Of a stretch of 24,059 bases of DNA, positions 1,754-21,034 are shown in pieces. This DNA is from a virus. The stretch lies in the IMG/VR virus record IMGVR_UViG_3300034198_017040, positions 1-24,059 of that record, one strand, 5' to 3'. How positions within the stretch are numbered: position 1 is the stretch's first letter; the number at the start of each line of letters is the position of its first letter. Made by a program: the position numbers and the translations under genes. The notes below the pieces were generated by a model that worked only from the letters and a program-made list of their open reading frames with translations, had not been told where the DNA came from and searched no databases.

Positions 1754-3192
1754 ATGTTACCGGGAGGCGCTGGCGCTTTCCCAATTGCCGTAGACAGCCC
1801 AGCCGCCTCCAGCTTGGCATTGTCAGCCTCATTCTCCGCAATGATCTTGTCGATGTTGAGACCGCGATCCTTGGCCGCACGCTCTCTGGAATTGAGCGAC
1901 AAAGCTATTTCCCGCTCGATGGCCTCAATGTCGCCGACAGGATCGACCCAGGTCCAAGTCCTGCCGGAGAATTCTACGTGAGAGAGGCGGTCGAAGTCGA
2001 GAAGCGTATAGCCTTCAATCCTGCCCATCAAGAGCGCCATGCGGAGCCAACGCTCGAAAAGCGGAATCTCGAAAGTGTCGATAAACCACGAATGGAGAAT
2101 CTTGTAGATGTCGCGCTCTGAAAGGACGCCCTGCCGGATGGACGAATACGAAACGCCCTCCAAGTCTTGCGCCCATGTGTTGTAATTGACGTAGATGCCG
2201 GGGCTAACGCCGCGCAAGATAGCCTTGCGGAAATCAGGCATTGCGCTGTTCGGATGCGCCGGATCAATCATTTGCGCCTCGACGCCATGCGGGAGCGTCT
2301 CAAACGTGCCTGGTGCGGAAGGCGCAATGGCCTTGCCGTCATCGTCCTCGTCGCCAGTGTATTGCGCCTCGCCAGTTTGCTTGAAAAAGCCTAGCTTGTT
2401 GGCGCTGATACGGGCGGCGATGACCTCGGCCTCTTCAAACTTCGCGAGATGGCGAAGGCGAAGGAGGGCATTGGCCAGCCACGAATAGCCTTGGCTCTGG
2501 TTGATGCGTCGAGCAAGGAACGTGTGGATCATGTTGTCACCAGGCACGGCGAACGTCTCGCGAGTGTAGCGACCGCTCTTCGGGTCCATCTTGCGCAGAT
2601 GATACCGAATCGGCTCATCCCACTCGTCAAACTCGACGCCCATGTAGATACGGGCGGCATCGTTCCGGTGGTGCGGATCCAAAGCGTCGATCTCGATGCC
2701 TTGAGCAGCAAAGCGGAAATCGTTTTTAGGAAAGCCCTCGATGGTGCGGGTCAAAAAGCCGCCATCGCGAACGGCAGAGCGCAGGGCAAGACGCTCAAAA
2801 GCAGCCCTTGAAAACTGCCGCGTAACGTCAAAATTGCCACGCCGGGAGAAATCCTCCCAAGCTTCCTCGACCTTCGCTCTTGCGTTGTTGTCGGCGCTGT
2901 TCGACAAGCCTTTTTTGCTCCTCGCATCTGCTCGACGGGCGAGCGATTTCATTCGGATGCCATGCTGCCCGATCACGTTGGACTCCAACGCCATCAACGC
3001 GCCCTCGATGTAGCCATCATTTCTCTCAGAATCCCGCGCACGGTCGCGCAGTGACTTGGCATCCTGCTTGATTGCGTTGTCGGCTGGGCCTGTTCCTGCG
3101 ACCCAATCGTTGGTGTATCGAGTCCCCTTGGCCGCGTCAAAATTGCGAGTGCGGATGGGCTTGTTGTTGGGGCCGTAAAGGAGAGGTTTCAT
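1750..3192 (-). CDS. Portal protein, lambda gpB family
   Basis: 480 residues, close to the length of lambda-type portals (phage_portal_2 family; lambda gpB is somewhat longer). The N-terminal part (TNDWVAGTGPADNAIKQD, then ALESNVIGQHGIRMKS) and the central YNTWAQDLEGVSYSSIRQG segment are typical of this family. Portals form the dodecameric ring at one capsid vertex through which DNA is packaged and to which the tail joins. The ATG overlaps the TGA of the upstream gpW-like gene (ATGA), and the terminase large subunit lies beyond that, so A-W-B order as in lambda is preserved. In lambda a head protease gene follows; here the block ends at the portal, whose stop shares bases with the convergent Nu1-like gene. 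Confidence 0.93.
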   Translation of the reverse strand: MKPLLYGPNNKPIRTRNFDAAKGTRYTNDWVAGTGPADNAIKQDAKSLRDRARDSERNDGYIEGALMALESNVIGQHGIRMKSLARRADARSKKGLSNSADNNARAKVEEAWEDFSRRGNFDVTRQFSRAAFERLALRSAVRDGGFLTRTIEGFPKNDFRFAAQGIEIDALDPHHRNDAARIYMGVEFDEWDEPIRYHLRKMDPKSGRYTRETFAVPGDNMIHTFLARRINQSQGYSWLANALLRLRHLAKFEEAEVIAARISANKLGFFKQTGEAQYTGDEDDDGKAIAPSAPGTFETLPHGVEAQMIDPAHPNSAMPDFRKAILRGVSPGIYVNYNTWAQDLEGVSYSSIRQGVLSERDIYKILHSWFIDTFEIPLFERWLRMALLMGRIEGYTLLDFDRLSHVEFSGRTWTWVDPVGDIEAIEREIALSLNSRERAAKDRGLNIDKIIAENEADNAKLEAAGLSTAIGKAPAPPGNI

Positions 3193-6708: not shown

Positions 6709-8989
6709 GCCTGACTCTCCCGTCATCTCTGGCGTTGCCGATCTGCCTAAATTCTATTTCGCGGAGGGCGCACCCTTCCGATTGAGCCTGACTATCGGCG
6801 CAGAGTTTTCGATGACGGGCAAATTCGTGACCTTCGGAATGAGGGCGCGTTCCGGCACGGTCAGGCGCGTTTTCGGAACCGATTCCGGCGAGGCAAATCT
6901 GACCATCGCGGGGCAGGTCATCACCCTCAACATTGCGACCAATGCAGCGACCGTTCCGGCCTTCGCTTCGGGTTGGACCTTGGAAGATGTCCAGGCTAAA
7001 GGCGAAACAGAATACTGGGTTGACATCTCCGCGACCGAAGGAAGCGACGTTCTGTTGCGCCTTCAAGGCCAAGCCGATTGGGTGGCACCTGGATCTGACA
7101 TCGCAGAATCTTCTGCCGTTGTTTCGTCGCCAGCGATTGATGTGAACATTGCAAGCGGAGCCGTCTCAGTATCGGTGGCAGTCCTCGGCGCTGCGGAACC
7201 AACGCTAACGACCAACACCGCCACAAGCGGGTTAACGGGCATTCTGAAAGCCGCAAGCAACACGCTCGACGTTGCCGTTGCAGGAACTGACTACGTCGCC
7301 ACAAACGATTCCCGCTTGACCGACGCAAGGACGCCCACAAGCCACGTTCATGGTGGCATTTCCAACGCTGGCGCAATCGGCTCGACCTCGGGCCTGCCAA
7401 TCAAAACCGGAACCAGCGGAGTCCTTGAGGCTGGCGCGTTTGGAACCGGCTCCGGTCAATTCGCACAAGGCAACGATGCGCGGTTCCATGATCGCTCGCA
7501 CGCGATAACATCGACCAGCGATCACACTGCCGGGAACTGGAAGGTATTTCACTCCAACGGCAGCGGTCAGCTTGTCGAGCTTGCCCTTGGGGCAGATGGA
7601 ACATACTTAAAGAGCAATGGCGCATCTGCCGCGCCTAGTTTCGCGACTCCTGCGGGAGGTGGCGGATCGTCCATCACCGGAACTGGGATTGCCTATGTTC
7701 GCACAACAGGGAACGGAGGAAATGATACGACCGGAACTATCGGAGATCCCTCAAAGCCGTATGCAACCGCGCAAGAGGCATGGAATGATGGGGCGCGGGT
7801 TTTTGAATTAGGGGCCGGAAGCTTTTCGTTTACGCACACATCATCCGTTAGTAGCACAGCGCAAGAACGTGTTTTCATCCAAGGACTTGGTAAGGAGGTT
7901 TCTAGTATCTCAATTACATGGGATGGTATCGATGGTGCGGTCGGATCGACATTTCCCTATGCGGTCGATGGTGGAAACGGGGTAATGCCTTCTAAGCTTT
8001 TTTTACAGTCGGATAGCACCGTAGCCATATCGCTCGCTATGTCGGGCGGGGATGGTGGAGCAGGAGGGGTAGGGCAACCGGGGACTTTTGAAGCACAAGG
8101 TGGCGTAGGTAGTGACGGTGGCGACGGGAGCAATAGCCCAGAGTTTGCAATTGCGAACGCACACCTAAGCACTTTTAGCTGCGTTGTTGGAGCAGGTGGG
8201 GCAGGTGGCGCAGGTGGCTCTGACGGTGGGGTTGGGGTTGGGGGGAATGGAATTGACGGAAATCCGGGGAACATAACTGGGGGTCTTTTTTCTTGGTGCT
8301 ATGTGCCAAGCACCTATACGGCTTCTGTTCAAGATGTCTTTTTGGCTAGCACAGTTGCTGGTGCAGGGCAGCTTGTTTTTGATGGTGACAAGGGTAGTAT
8401 CACCGTTAGCAGTAATGGGACTACTTGGTCTCTAGATCAAGGGGCCGTTGCCCTTGATAGAATTGTTAGCGCCACGGCAAAAGGTAAAATCATTGGCAGA
8501 AAAACCGCAGGGTGGGGGGCTTACGAGGAGTGTGTGATTGGAGATTTTATCGACGCTCCCGCTGCCACCACGAGTAACATCACGGACACGACGGGAGCTG
8601 TTACCAACGTAACGGGCATGTCTTTTTCAATTGCCGCCAACGAAAAAGTTTCGGCGATCTTTCGAGGTTTCTGGGCAACCAATACTTCCGGCTCCGGCTT
8701 CAAATATGCTTTTACCGGTCCAGAATCTCCTACTGACGTTCAGATTGGCGACTTCTCTTCCACCTCGGCTACCGCAGTTAGATCGGAGTCTGGAATGACT
8801 GCGTTCAGCACAACCGCGACTCAAGGCAGCGCCACGTTGATAAATACCCCGATGCCAATTATGGTTCAGATTTACGTTCGCAATGGGGCGAATCCAGGCA
8901 CGGTCCAGTTCCAGATCGGGGGAGAACTCCTTGGCTCCACCTTCACGCTTTATAAAGGCTTCACGATGCAGGTTCTCAGAATCCCATGA
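6707..8989 (+). CDS. Large tail fibre / receptor-binding protein with Gly-rich tract
   Basis: 760 residues. GTGGAGG about 9 bases before the ATG is a good ribosome site. Residues 1-125 form a beta-rich N-terminal domain, probably virion anchoring. Residues about 195-217 carry the fibre shaft motif TDYVATNDSRLTDARTPTSH, found in many phage fibres. Residues about 445-525 contain two Gly-rich runs (GGDGGAGGVGQPG; GAGGAGGAGGSDGG), separated by a short non-repetitive segment. Near residue 594 is IIGRKTAGWGAYEECVIGDF, another common fibre module. The C-terminal 150 residues look like a beta-structured tip. It presumably binds the host surface. The section from about 7700 to 8540 uses more AT-rich codons than its flanks, consistent with module exchange. 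The next gene overlaps by ATGA. Confidence 0.85.
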   Translation: MPDSPVISGVADLPKFYFAEGAPFRLSLTIGAEFSMTGKFVTFGMRARSGTVRRVFGTDSGEANLTIAGQVITLNIATNAATVPAFASGWTLEDVQAKGETEYWVDISATEGSDVLLRLQGQADWVAPGSDIAESSAVVSSPAIDVNIASGAVSVSVAVLGAAEPTLTTNTATSGLTGILKAASNTLDVAVAGTDYVATNDSRLTDARTPTSHVHGGISNAGAIGSTSGLPIKTGTSGVLEAGAFGTGSGQFAQGNDARFHDRSHAITSTSDHTAGNWKVFHSNGSGQLVELALGADGTYLKSNGASAAPSFATPAGGGGSSITGTGIAYVRTTGNGGNDTTGTIGDPSKPYATAQEAWNDGARVFELGAGSFSFTHTSSVSSTAQERVFIQGLGKEVSSISITWDGIDGAVGSTFPYAVDGGNGVMPSKLFLQSDSTVAISLAMSGGDGGAGGVGQPGTFEAQGGVGSDGGDGSNSPEFAIANAHLSTFSCVVGAGGAGGAGGSDGGVGVGGNGIDGNPGNITGGLFSWCYVPSTYTASVQDVFLASTVAGAGQLVFDGDKGSITVSSNGTTWSLDQGAVALDRIVSATAKGKIIGRKTAGWGAYEECVIGDFIDAPAATTSNITDTTGAVTNVTGMSFSIAANEKVSAIFRGFWATNTSGSGFKYAFTGPESPTDVQIGDFSSTSATAVRSESGMTAFSTTATQGSATLINTPMPIMVQIYVRNGANPGTVQFQIGGELLGSTFTLYKGFTMQVLRIP

Positions 8990-9405
8990 TAGCGACCATT
9001 CACGATATTCTTTCAATTGCTTGGCCAGATCGCGGCGGCTGGCGAGTCTACGGCGAGGAAATCACCGCAGGAGACGGCGGCAGCGTTCCAACGCTCCAAG
9101 AGATCGAGGCCCAACGCGCATTTGCAGAGGCTGTCATCACAGACAGGGAAACTTCCATAAATCAGCGCACACAAGGCCGCTCCGCTCTTTACGGCGCATG
9201 GCAAGCTCTCCCCGCTTACATTCGCGGCCCATTCCGCGAAAAGTTTGAAGTCGCCAACACCCTCCTCGACGAAGGCGATGACGAAGCCGCAATCGCAATG
9301 ATCGAATACGCCGAAGCGCCAACCTCTTACACAGCAGAACAAGTCATCGTCTTCGCCGCAACCAAAACGGCCATGAAAGCAGGCATCGAAAATCTCTCCG
9401 CATGA
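8986..9405 (+). CDS. Small fibre-associated protein, possible fibre assembly factor
   Basis: 139 residues, starting at an ATG that overlaps the fibre stop (ATGA) and ending in another ATGA overlap with the second fibre gene, so it is coupled to both. The N-terminus has a W-x-V-Y-G segment followed by SVPTLQEIEAQRAFAEAV, a pattern seen in small proteins encoded next to tail fibres. The rest is helical and acidic (NTLLDEGDDEAAIAMIEYAE). No membrane segment is visible. Role as chaperone or minor fibre component is inferred from position; a structural protein is an equal alternative. Confidence 0.7.
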   Translation: MIATIHDILSIAWPDRGGWRVYGEEITAGDGGSVPTLQEIEAQRAFAEAVITDRETSINQRTQGRSALYGAWQALPAYIRGPFREKFEVANTLLDEGDDEAAIAMIEYAEAPTSYTAEQVIVFAATKTAMKAGIENLSA

Positions 9406-17625: not shown

Positions 17626-17861
17626 TCTGCCTTTGCTGTCCTCCCATCAATTTCGTCTGCGAGCTGCACCGATCCGGTCGAGCTGCGACCGATTGCCCGT
17701 GGAATCCTGACGACCTGCCGGCGCGTCTACGCGGATTCGGTCACCGAATGGCCGACCAAGACGGCGGAAGCGGCGAAGAGTGGATCTGGCCGCAAGAGGA
17801 TTTTGAGGCGCAGATGATCGAGGCCGTCAAAGTCATCTTTGAAGCGGCAGAATTGCCGTAA
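17622..17861 (+). CDS. Small Cys-containing protein of unknown function
   Basis: 79 residues, ATGA overlap with the HExxH gene, so it belongs to the same operon. The N-terminus is MICLCCPPINFVCELHRSG followed by ATDC: Cys at residues 3, 5, 6, 13 and 24 plus His 16 could bind a metal. The C-terminal half is acidic with a helix (EDFEAQMIEAVKVIFEAAEL). The last 29 bases overlap the 3' end of the convergent integrase gene. Not recognised. Confidence 0.55.
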   Translation: MICLCCPPINFVCELHRSGRAATDCPWNPDDLPARLRGFGHRMADQDGGSGEEWIWPQEDFEAQMIEAVKVIFEAAELP

Positions 17862-18996
17862 ACCGCTTCGCCTCGTCGCGACTGACCAGCTTGGCGACGT
17901 AGGACCGATAAAGCTGGCTGGCGTTGGCATGCCTTGACCACGTTGCCACCTTTGCCGCATCACCGTAAAGGCTCATCATCGCCGTGCAAAACGTGTGGCG
18001 CATGGCATTCTTGGGCCATTCTGGAATCCCGATCTTGCGGAACTCCTCACCTCGCCAATTCTCGACCGTGTCATTGCCGGGAACTGCGACCCTGCCTTTG
18101 CCCTGGTGCTTCCGAAGCCACGCCCAAAGGTTCTCAGGCAGGTCATGGAGCGCCCAATCGTCTCCCGTCTTAACGACTCGCTCGCCGCCTTCGGTCCAAC
18201 CAGGTAGGGTGATGACTCGCGCATCGAGGTCGATCCAGCTCCATTGCATGCGGCCCACTTCAGCGCGGCGGATTCCCGCGAATAGCTGGAGGGCGTGCCA
18301 TGGAGCGTACTTGGGAGCGTTGCAGTCGATCCATGCCATCATCGCCGCGCATTGATCGACACTCAGGACTCCCTTGGGCTTCGGCTTGAGGCGCGGAAGA
18401 TCGCCTTCGTGGATGGACAAGGTGGGGGCCTTCGATACAAGCCCTCGACGCTCGCACCAATTGAAAAAGTTGCAGAGGCTTCCGTGATAGTTGGCGACCG
18501 TTCTCGCATCGAGGGGCAGACTCGCAAGCCAATCGAGGACGGAATTGCCCGTGATGCTCCTAATCTGCCGCGTGCTGGCCGACTCAGCAAAAAGTCCGAC
18601 ATGGTGACGTAGACCGGACAGGTGGCGCTTGGAAAGGCCTCTAGACTCTTGCGCGGCCATAAACTCGTCGTAGGCGTTTGCTACGGTGACCGCAGCGGAT
18701 CCGAGCGGATGGTGCTGGAGGTAGAATCGGGCCGCGTCTCTCAGATCCACGTTGGGAATGATGCGTCGAGCCTCCGCAAGTTCACGCAAATCGTCAGGGG
18801 AAAGAGGGGCCGAATCAGTCCCGTGCCGCTTTAAGTGCCGCACATGTTCCGCCCATGCCTTTTCCGCTTCGGCTTGAGTCTGGTGGAGGGAACGGAGACG
18901 CTTTCCCTGCGAGTGAATGGTCAGCTCCCATTTCTCGCGATCACTTCTGAAAGTGATGGGAATGGTCCCGCTTCGGGTGGTTGGTATTTTGCCCAT
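17833..18996 (-). CDS. int: Tyrosine-type site-specific integrase
   Basis: 387 residues from ATG 18996; the frame continues to a GTG at 19038, but that leader would translate the GGTGGCGGTT repeats, so the shorter start is preferred (moderately). Residues 1-55 form an arm-binding type beta domain (IPITFRSDREKWELTIHSQG), about 100-190 a SAM-like core-binding domain, and 205-387 the catalytic domain: AGIRRAEV with R243, WPKNAMRHTF with R333, WSRHAN with H356, and the nucleophile probably Y366 in LYRSYV. Where most enzymes have H in HxxR, this one has N330. It recombines attP with a host attB, probably the tmRNA gene end next to it. Transcribed away from the att site. Confidence 0.93.
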   Translation of the reverse strand: MGKIPTTRSGTIPITFRSDREKWELTIHSQGKRLRSLHQTQAEAEKAWAEHVRHLKRHGTDSAPLSPDDLRELAEARRIIPNVDLRDAARFYLQHHPLGSAAVTVANAYDEFMAAQESRGLSKRHLSGLRHHVGLFAESASTRQIRSITGNSVLDWLASLPLDARTVANYHGSLCNFFNWCERRGLVSKAPTLSIHEGDLPRLKPKPKGVLSVDQCAAMMAWIDCNAPKYAPWHALQLFAGIRRAEVGRMQWSWIDLDARVITLPGWTEGGERVVKTGDDWALHDLPENLWAWLRKHQGKGRVAVPGNDTVENWRGEEFRKIGIPEWPKNAMRHTFCTAMMSLYGDAAKVATWSRHANASQLYRSYVAKLVSRDEAKRFTAILPLQR

Positions 18997-19000
18997 TTCC

Positions 19001-19020
19001 GGTGGCGGTTGGTGGCGGTT
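19001..19020 (+). repeat. Tandem GGTGGCGGTT repeat, candidate integrase arm sites (left)
   Basis: Two perfect direct copies of the decamer GGTGGCGGTT, at 19001-19010 and 19011-19020, period 10. Two more copies in the same orientation lie right of the core (19161 on). Paired, helically phased direct repeats either side of an att core are the usual form of integrase arm-type sites. They also lie just upstream of the preferred integrase start, so binding could affect int expression. Confidence 0.55.
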
Positions 19021-19076
19021 TAAGGTCTCAAAAGGCACTATTTTGCCCTATTTTGGGAACCTTGTAAACCCTGCAG

Positions 19077-19093
19077 CCCTTATTCTATAAGGG
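19077..19093. terminator. Hairpin with 7-bp stem, possible terminator or att element
   Basis: CCCTTAT (19077-19083) and ATAAGGG (19087-19093) pair perfectly around a TCT loop; on the plus strand TTTT follows at 19094. It could be a weak terminator of plus-strand transcripts or a copy of the host terminator downstream of ssrA carried in attP. The right arm is also half of the TATAAGGG/CCCTTATA inverted repeat around the core. Confidence 0.35.
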
Positions 19094-19100
19094 TTTTGAT

Positions 19101-19122
19101 ATGGAGGTGAGGGGAGTTGAAC
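19101..19122 (-). other. tmRNA (ssrA) 3'-end-like segment, probable att core
   Basis: On the minus strand this reads GGTTCAACTCCCCTCACC then TCCA. Mapped on tRNA numbering it gives T-loop TTCAACT, T-stem 3' side CCCCT, acceptor 3' side CACCTCC and discriminator A73. TTCAACTCCC is a hallmark of tmRNA, and the acceptor has U at position 70, which pairs as the G3-U70 alanine identity element. The matching 5' acceptor (GGGGGTG-like) and the T-stem 5' side are absent upstream, so it is a fragment, not a working RNA gene. No CCA follows the A. A tRNA-Ser-like source is the alternative. Integration into ssrA is common for phages and islands. Confidence 0.6.
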
Positions 19123-19160
19123 CTTCAACCACCCTTATATAATGGGGCTTCCAGAGACCC

Positions 19161-19179
19161 GGTGGCGGTTCGGTGGCGG
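19161..19179 (+). repeat. GGTGGCGG repeat pair, candidate integrase arm sites (right)
   Basis: GGTGGCGGTT at 19161-19170 and GGTGGCGG at 19172-19179 (diverging after the eighth base), period 11. Same orientation and sequence as the left pair. Confidence 0.5.
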
Positions 19180-19368
19180 GTGGAAGCAAGAGAGGGGCGT
19201 ATTTCGCTGTTCTTTTGATCACTTTTAAACCGTGTCCCAGCATCGCCTCAAAAACAACTTCGCTGCAAAATCCGCGTAATTTTTTGCATGTTTGGCAAAG
19301 CAGAATTGAGGCCGCTGATGCAACCTGCGAGCGGCTCACAATGATTGATGTTACGCTTCACTGGTCGT

Positions 19369-19548
19369 TCACTTCTGGGGTGGGATCGTCCCCAACCTCT
19401 CTTTAAGCAGCACCTCAAGCCAGCTCGACAAGCTCCGGCTATCTGCTTCCGCTGCTGCTTTTGCCGCCAAAAGTAAGTCCTCTCTCAGGGAAATGCTCGT
19501 CTGAGCCTTCCCCGCCGCACGGTCGTGGTTTCTCGCCTTCTTTTTCAT
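19369..19548 (-). CDS. Ribbon-helix-helix DNA-binding protein (leftward)
   Basis: 59 residues from ATG 19548; the frame runs on upstream to 19647 but that leader (FFELAVLF etc.) lies in the divergent AT-rich promoter region and is probably not translated. The core TSISLREDLLLAAKAAAEAD followed by SRSLSSWLEVLLKERL has the strand-helix-helix pattern of Arc/CopG-type proteins: a short beta strand (TSISL) for DNA contact, then two helices. The N-terminus is basic (KKKARNHDRAAGK). It is divergent from a second, similar RHH gene, so the two could form a switch, with one as the lysogeny repressor. No clear Shine-Dalgarno sequence precedes the ATG. Confidence 0.65.
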   Translation of the reverse strand: MKKKARNHDRAAGKAQTSISLREDLLLAAKAAAEADSRSLSSWLEVLLKERLGTIPPQK

Positions 19549-19602
19549 GATGGCGAATAATACGGCCAATTCAAAAAAAATACAGCAAAATAAAAAATGC
19601 TC

Positions 19603-19631
19603 TTGACCCTCGCCGTGATACGGCATATCAA
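19603..19631 (+). promoter_or_regulatory. Candidate rightward early promoter with operator-like palindrome
   Basis: TTGACC at 19603-19608, a 17-base spacer and TATCAA at 19626-19631 form a sigma70-type promoter pointing into the RHH/antirepressor operon (gene start 19658). Between the two boxes lies the palindrome CCGTgatACGG (19612-19622). ATACGGC inside it recurs at about 19560-19566, near the start of the leftward RHH gene, so both may be operator half-sites. The whole interval 19549-19657 is AT-rich. Confidence 0.5.
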
Positions 19632-19657
19632 GTTCAATCAGCGACAATTAAGACGTG

Positions 19658-19828
19658 ATGAAATCTAACACAACCATTAGTATTGAAGAGCAAATTCTCG
19701 AAGAAGCTCGGGCTTTTGCAAAATCGGAACGCCGATCCCTTTCCTCTCAAATTGAGGTCTGGATTGCCGAAAAGCTCGAGATCGACGCGCCAAAGGATGA
19801 GCTTGAAAGCGCGGAGGGAGCAGCATGA
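19658..19828 (+). CDS. Ribbon-helix-helix DNA-binding protein (rightward)
   Basis: 56 residues. [20 protein letters not shown] supplies the beta strand and first helix, and [17 protein letters not shown] the turn and second helix of the CopG/Arc fold. The turn SLSSxxEV matches that of the leftward RHH protein (SLSSWLEV), so the two are distant paralogues or members of one group. The acidic C-terminal tail differs. The stop overlaps the antirepressor ATG (ATGA). It is first in the rightward early operon behind the candidate promoter, so it may play a Cro-like part. A missing antitoxin partner is the alternative reading, but no toxin gene is next to it. Confidence 0.68.
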
Positions 19829-20535
19829 GTCTTTCCCTTGCCATCAAAAACGGGCCGCGAGGCGTTGACCTTCGCGAGCTTCACTTAAAGCTTGAGTCTG
19901 GACGGGATTTCTCGAATTGGGCCAAGGCAAATCTTGCCGAGTTCATCGAGGGTCACGACTTTGAGGTTTACGCCAACTCTGGCGAAAACCCCGCAGGTGG
20001 TCGCCCAAGGACTGAATACGCCGTTTCCATCGAATGCGCGAAACACATCGCGATGATGGAGCGGACCGAGAAGGGGCGGCAGGTCCGTCAATACTTCATC
20101 GAGATTGAGAAGGCGGCGCAACTCCCGGCCATCCCAACTCACTCCGAAGCGCTTCGCCTCGCCGCCGACGCCATCGACAAGGCCGAGGCTCTTGCCCTTG
20201 AGGTCGCGGATCTCAAACCCAAGGCCGAGTTTCACGATCAAGTCACGGCATCGGATACGGTGACCCAATTGGCCATTGCGTGCCAAGTCCTCGATCTGCC
20301 CTTTGGCCGGAACGTCCTGTTTCAGCGGCTCCGAAACCGGGGCGTGCTGATTACCGGTGGTGATCGTCACAATCTCCCGAAGCAGGAGCATGTCCTCAAC
20401 GGGCGCTTCACGGTCAAGGAGTCGAGCTACATACACGACGGCGAGCCGCATGTCCGTTTCACCACCTATGTGACCCAGAAGGGACTGGATTGGCTCCGGC
20501 GTGAATTCCAAACCAAACAACTGCAAACCGCATGA
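19825..20535 (+). CDS. Phage antirepressor, AntA/AntB domain plus KilAC domain
   Basis: 236 residues. Residues about 13-97 match the AntA/AntB type N-terminal domain: [20 protein letters not shown], then [20 protein letters not shown] and [19 protein letters not shown]. Residues about 105-140 are a helical linker, and 140-230 resemble the KilAC/ANT DNA-binding domain ([46 protein letters not shown]). Antirepressors of this type relieve repression of lytic genes, commonly by inactivating the prophage repressor. It follows the RHH gene directly and precedes an Xis-like gene, supporting a lysis/lysogeny control module. Confidence 0.88.
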
Positions 20536-20762
20536 AAGACCTATCAGCCCAACTCGACCGCATAGAGGCCGCGCTGGCCTCACTTGGCGGCATTCAATCG
20601 CCGTGGCTCCGAGGTGACAAGGCAGGAGCCGAATACGCAGGATTTAAGTCACCACGCGGATTCCTGCGCTGGGTTTCAATGAAGGGGATTCGCCCCGACA
20701 AGAGCGACGGCATTAATTTCTGGAGCCGCCGCGACATCGACAAAGCAAGAGGATCACGATGA
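20532..20762 (+). CDS. Small HTH/excisionase-like DNA-binding protein
   Basis: 76 residues with an N-terminal helix ([17 protein letters not shown]) and a MerR/Xis-type winged region: [20 protein letters not shown], then [18 protein letters not shown], where the tyrosine-containing helix, turn and following tryptophan resemble helix_turn_helix_17 proteins. Such proteins act as excisionases (recombination directionality factors) or small regulators. Overlaps by ATGA at both ends. Distance from the integrase and opposite direction are as expected for an early excisionase, but nothing proves it. Confidence 0.6.
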
Positions 20763-21034
20763 AAAACGACATTCTATACAACCGAAAAGCGGACAACCTC
20801 CGCGCACGCATGGCCGAGATCTTTGACCGTCAAAGCGTGGACACGGTCCACGATATCATCAACCGAGCCTTTGAGGCTGGCGTCTCAGCAAAGTCAGACG
20901 CGGACTTCTTCGCAATGGAGGACGCACTCCGTCGAGCAAGGGAGCGATACGAGGCCCAGCGCCGCACGGAGCCTGTCGCCTTCTTGGATGTCGCACCCGG
21001 AACCCTTATCCGCATCGCTGCAAATGAACTTTGA
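20759..21034 (+). CDS. Small helical protein of unknown function
   Basis: 91 residues, start ATG overlaps the previous stop. Mostly helical and charged (LRARMAEIFDRQSVDTVHDI; EDALRRARERYEAQRR), ending in a short hydrophobic/beta segment (VAFLDVAPGTLIRIAANEL). No known motif. It is in the middle of the rightward early operon. Confidence 0.6.
   Translation: MKNDILYNRKADNLRARMAEIFDRQSVDTVHDIINRAFEAGVSAKSDADFFAMEDALRRARERYEAQRRTEPVAFLDVAPGTLIRIAANEL

Follow-up and report, generated by a model that had tools for sequence, protein, structure and literature searches.

A phage attachment site, probably on the 3′ end of ssrA, beside a tyrosine integrase gene in a virus record

Published work has shown that about 30–50% of integrative islands target tDNA, with tmRNA as the most enriched target, and that the attP bears a tDNA fragment that restores the target gene (PMC4383910). 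The closest described systems are the phages and islands at the 3′ ends of ssrA and tRNA genes with a T-loop or junction sublocation (Islander, PMC4383910). The locus in this study is similar to them in its 3′ tDNA fragment from T-loop to discriminator, its short attP by a tyrosine integrase gene and its flanking repeats, whereas its integrase has no detectable relative in 50,697 GenBank phage records. The locus lies in a virus record of 24,059 bases, the whole of which was analyzed and is called the window here. The tDNA block beside the integrase gene is best read as an attP on a tDNA 3′ end. We believe that positions 19077–19180 are the core of an intact phage attP, which spans about 180 bases with its arm sites, and that its target is most likely the 3′ end of ssrA (tmRNA). 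A phage integrating at a tDNA 3′ end is of an already known kind, and the present one is an ordinary new case.

The sequence GGTTCAACTCCCCTCACCTCCA, read directly on the minus strand at 19123–19102, corresponds to the stretch from T-loop to discriminator of a tRNA-like gene. The block opens with the two final bases of the 5′ T-stem, followed by the T-loop TTCAACT (19115–19121), the 3′ T-stem CCCCT (19110–19114), the acceptor 3′ strand CACCTCC (19103–19109) and the discriminator A (19102). The rest of the 5′ T-stem is missing: GAAGG stands in place of AGGGG, and the GAA before the block breaks the T-stem. No CCA is encoded after the block, either in the window or in a second phage, L002 (in IMGVR_UViG_3300032227_001003). 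ARAGORN and Rfam gave no gene call in the window, which is expected because the block is a fragment. An earlier note on this DNA had recognized the fragment on the minus strand and its missing T-stem side correctly, and had placed it one base off, at 19122–19101. On the minus strand, the elements follow in the order TATAAGGG (19139–19132), TGGTTGAA, GGTTCAACTCCCCTCACCTCCA, TATCAAAA and CCCTTATA (19093–19086). The distance from the block to the integrase ATG is 106 bases, in agreement with the approximately 100 bases noticed before, and the two share one reading direction. On one flank of the block are genes for the portal, terminase and tail, and on the opposite flank those for the antirepressor and exonuclease VIII. 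Because phage genes flank the block on both sides, the phage is unintegrated at this site, as had been proposed. The coordinates of the features are shown in Table 1.

Table 1. Features of the attP region and its neighborhood, in window positions.
Feature	Position	Strand	Basis or conservation
Tyrosine integrase, 387 aa from ATG 18996 (GTG 19038 is a possible alternative ORF start)	17833..18996	-	PF00589, PHROG 1
Two CCGCCACC direct repeats, 10 bases apart, candidate arm-type sites in the core-integrase interval	19001..19018 (19001-19008, 19011-19018)	-	Degenerate in L002
Palindrome CCCTTATTCTATAAGGG, 7-bp arms	19077..19093	.	Alignment with L002: kept, three middle bases inverted
tDNA 3′ fragment GGTTCAACTCCCCTCACCTCCA, putative attP identity block with attB	19102..19123	-	Read directly
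Candidate core-type inverted repeat AGGGTGGTTGAA-GG-TTCAACTCCCCT, 10/12 arm positions matching	19110..19135	-	Best inverted repeat of the core region
Third ATAAGGG copy, across the core from the palindrome	19132..19138	-	Motif count
Two CCGCCACC direct repeats, 11 bases apart, candidate arm-type sites	19161..19179 (19161-19168, 19172-19179)	-	Identical in L002
Small ORF between attP and antirepressor, ribbon-helix-helix-like by eye	19369..19647	-	Zero family matches
AntA/KilAC antirepressor, in a module missing from most relatives	19825..20535	+	Family matches

The second phage L002 has an integrase that is 93% identical, the same core, the same left arm repeats and the same gene order. Its right flank has diverged, including the immediate 3′ flank of the block, and it carries an HTH-type gene between attP and antirepressor. 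The alignment of the two phages showed 42 unbroken common bases around the block, CCCATTATATAAGGGTGGTTGAAGGTTCAACTCCCCTCACCTCCAT, followed by divergence, and CACCCGCCACCGAACCGCCACCG is shared further left.

The sequence CCGCCACC occurs six times in the window, always on the minus strand, where 0.87 copies would be expected; four copies lie within 180 bases and flank the core two by two. Tyrosine integrases usually have their arm-type sites arranged in this way, as paired repeats on both sides of the core. From their clustering and conservation, these four repeats look like candidate arm-type sites of the integrase. The 8-bp inverted repeat TATAAGGG/CCCTTATA, which had been described as exact, is indeed exact in the window; in L002 the sequence on the right is CCCTTATTCTATAAGGG, which leaves only the heptamer CCCTTAT/ATAAGGG conserved. 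This right-hand heptamer belongs in both phages to a palindrome, CCCTTATnnnATAAGGG, whose central bases are AGA in one phage and TCT in the second. Three of the four ATAAGGG copies of the window lie in the core region, and the count of ATAAGGG was reached by 8 of 100 shuffles. This inverted repeat is not obviously a core-type site. The imperfect repeat AGGGTGGTTGAA-GG-TTCAACTCCCCT, which is centered on the left edge of the block and was equalled by 44 of 2000 shuffles, is the best candidate for the core-type sites and is suggestive only. We also considered the palindrome after the block as a replacement terminator; in the window its stem comprises just three G-C pairs, and a T-run is lacking. 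At the same position elsewhere, a clear terminator is found in one phage (L299) and hairpins in two others (L016 and L191).

The integrase matched the PF00589 profile with 31.2 bits, above the curated cut-off of 27.1, and the PHROG 1 integrase at 5.6e-30. The L002 homologue starts with MGKIPTT, as does the window integrase from ATG 18996. Candidate catalytic residues are an R in GIRRAE, an R and an H in NAMRHTF, the H of WSRH and a Tyr in the C-terminal part, and by eye the nucleophile would be Y366. Most tyrosine recombinases have a His at the first position of HxxR, which is replaced here by Asn. Scans of the viral collection with the integrase alignment gave nothing but L002. A search with the motif PKNAxRH[ST]F, which seven integrase relatives have in common, gave relatives at 21–29% identity, all with Asn for the first His of HxxR. 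In two of these distant relatives (L291 and L299), a tRNA-Ser 3′ end lies approximately 150–300 bases upstream of the integrase gene in the same orientation. The layout of the window is thus repeated within its own integrase family, on a different tDNA. The L299 fragment starts inside the T-loop and is directly followed by an intrinsic terminator, within 330 bases upstream of the integrase ORF (8074–9258, minus strand), and this attP seems to bring its own replacement terminator.

Four further phages (L016, L191, L204 and L229/L232) resemble the window in having a tyrosine integrase gene beside a tDNA fragment from T-loop to end with nearly the same sequence; they differ in that their integrases are unrelated to that of the window in pairwise BLAST and that CCA is encoded in some. 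Their tmRNA-like 3′ fragments (L016 1901–1922, L191 1575–1595, L204 822–842 and L229 4116–4136) all start one base before the T-loop, as in the window.

The earlier note had assigned the block to tmRNA on the basis of U70 and the discriminator A. This argument is insufficient, because G3-U70 is the identity element of tRNA-Ala, which also has the discriminator A, and these two features by themselves cannot distinguish the two targets. The exact 22-mer is present in 33 of 2.9 million viral contigs. In 30 of the 33 it lies at a tmRNA 3′ end (23 with an ARAGORN tmRNA call and seven with the tmRNA-type GGACAGG just upstream) and in none at a tRNA end, in collections that are viral and hold few tRNA-Ala genes. 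The remaining three are one locus that resembles a tmRNA end by eye (L033) and two fragments without a gene (L016, and L008, whose contig is that of L002). When the T-loop was allowed to vary and the stem and acceptor were kept, the matches in viral contigs belonged almost exclusively to tmRNAs, and every in-gene case with the T-loop TTCAACT and the acceptor of the block was a tmRNA. Among bacteria, the 22-mer was absent from whole genomes of one phylum reached via a Clostridiaceae genome (0/399) and of Pseudomonadota (0/399). No exact core match was found in GenBank phages or plasmids. Six Thermus plasmid records (NZ_CP010825.1 26808–26829, NZ_AP025618.1 175281–175302 and four more) carry a 22-base stretch one base off the block, with no gene annotated there. 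Separately, the tmRNA genes of many large viral contigs (L003, L006, L007, L009, L010, L027 and others) are complete and encode tag peptides of unusual length, for example VKSQSERVEEGASIIAMAFASELALAA.

The most serious competitor is an attP on the 3′ end of tRNA-Ala, which would involve the same mechanism with another target, and we consider it unlikely. Matches to the block with up to three mismatches were collected from an unbiased sample of 141 bacterial genomes of two phyla, and the readable loci were classed by ARAGORN: 28 were tRNA-Ala, 22 were tmRNA and ten had no call. Among the 50 near matches associated with a gene (two or three mismatches), 28 are thus tRNA-Ala, and because these matches are split between the two genes, resemblance alone cannot settle the target class. 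A viral contig (L244, 390–410) also carries a stretch that resembles a tRNA-Ala (GGC) 3′ fragment with the end TCACCTCCA, and no complete tRNA is called there. Against tRNA-Ala, an exact match to it was found in none of the 798 genomes and none of the 33 viral contigs, and the in-gene viral cases with the T-loop and acceptor of the block all fall to tmRNA. We therefore favor tmRNA as the probable target, because exact copies in viral contigs lie at the ends of tmRNA genes and at the end of no tRNA gene. What had been proposed as an attP on tmRNA is kept as an attP on a tRNA-like 3′ end beside a tyrosine integrase gene, with tmRNA as the likeliest gene, and the near matches in genomes, split with tRNA-Ala, speak less clearly. 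A tRNA-Ser target, which had been named as the case against tmRNA, does not fit: tRNA-Ser 3′ ends read CTCTCTCCG with the discriminator G, and the block ends CACCTCCA. As for the L244 fragment, it is perhaps an attachment site with its crossover in the anticodon region.

The remaining readings concern the nature of the block. Many phages carry whole tmRNA genes, and a decayed phage-borne tmRNA gene could leave such a fragment, as could the attR or attL of an integrated prophage. We regard both as very improbable: on either side the phage genes run on, both in the window and in a 34.5-kb relative, the fragment starts exactly at the T-loop border as in the four other phages with fragments beside integrases, and nothing of the remainder of a tmRNA is present. 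Still less probable is a chance resemblance to a tDNA end, or an unrelated regulatory dyad whose inverted repeats serve gene regulation. The silence of ARAGORN and Rfam in the window would fit it, and repeats of seven or eight bases are weak evidence by themselves; it is already largely refuted by a perfect 22-base tDNA end that lies beside an integrase gene, is kept in a second phage and does not occur by chance in 798 bacterial genomes.

With ssrA as the favored target, we propose that integration would proceed as follows. The integrase would pair the phage block with the identical stretch of the host target gene, and from known tDNA integration the crossover would fall within or near the T-loop (PMC4383910). 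The 5′ part of the host gene would be joined to the phage-borne 3′ end, and the tmRNA would be restored. The integrase gene would then lie directly downstream of the restored tmRNA and point the same way, and the opposite end of the prophage would carry the host 3′ end that had been displaced. The predicted junctions are tmRNA followed by TATCAAAACCCTTATAGAATAAGGG for attL, and ATTATATAAGGGTGGTTGAAGGTTCAA followed by host DNA for attR. As CCA does not follow the block in either phage, a gene restored in this way would need CCA to be added, and the ssrA of the host probably lacks an encoded CCA as well.

A search of the collection of bacterial genomes gave no relative of the integrase, and the searches used here revealed no bacterial genome that carries the integrase, a closely related terminase, the 22-mer, an integrated copy or an attB. 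The terminase alignment gave only relatives at 27–33% in bacterial genomes (Rickettsiales, Clostridia, Synergistaceae and others), an identity that carries no information about the host. Two similarities link the window to the Verrucomicrobia phage P8625, one in a metallophosphoesterase (25%) and one over part of the tape measure (31%), and they are too weak to point to a host.

A scan with the terminase gave 43 contigs, most at 91–99% identity. In four of these relatives (G002, G003, G007 and G013), homology to the window ends at 17824–17827 and restarts at 20769–20770, and approximately 0.3–0.7 kb of other DNA with small ORFs replaces the stretch from integrase to antirepressor. A tyrosine integrase was found in two of 20 records of terminase relatives (the contig of L002 and one other), the block in the contig of L002 only, and a serine recombinase in none of the eight relatives tested. 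The gap in the relatives indicates that the integrase-attP-antirepressor stretch (17833–20769) is a variable module of the phage group. The relatives without it may be virulent, or their records may be incomplete. One contig with a relative of the terminase (G016) carries two different tyrosine recombinase genes, tail to tail (L081; 961–2127 on the plus strand and 2132–3121 on the minus strand), together with a GC-rich second phage region, and its inspection for host genes was uninformative.

We tentatively speculate, with some doubt, that integrase, attP and antirepressor are one exchangeable module, gained by or lost from otherwise integrase-free, widespread environmental phages, which would switch close relatives (92–99% terminase identity) between virulent and temperate life with ssrA as the landing site. 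For this phage, a temperate member of an abundant and uncultured group, the block gives a precise address of integration, and it offers a handle for the host search, namely bacteria whose ssrA ends in the 24-mer GGGGTTCAACTCCCCTCACCTCCA, probably without an encoded CCA.
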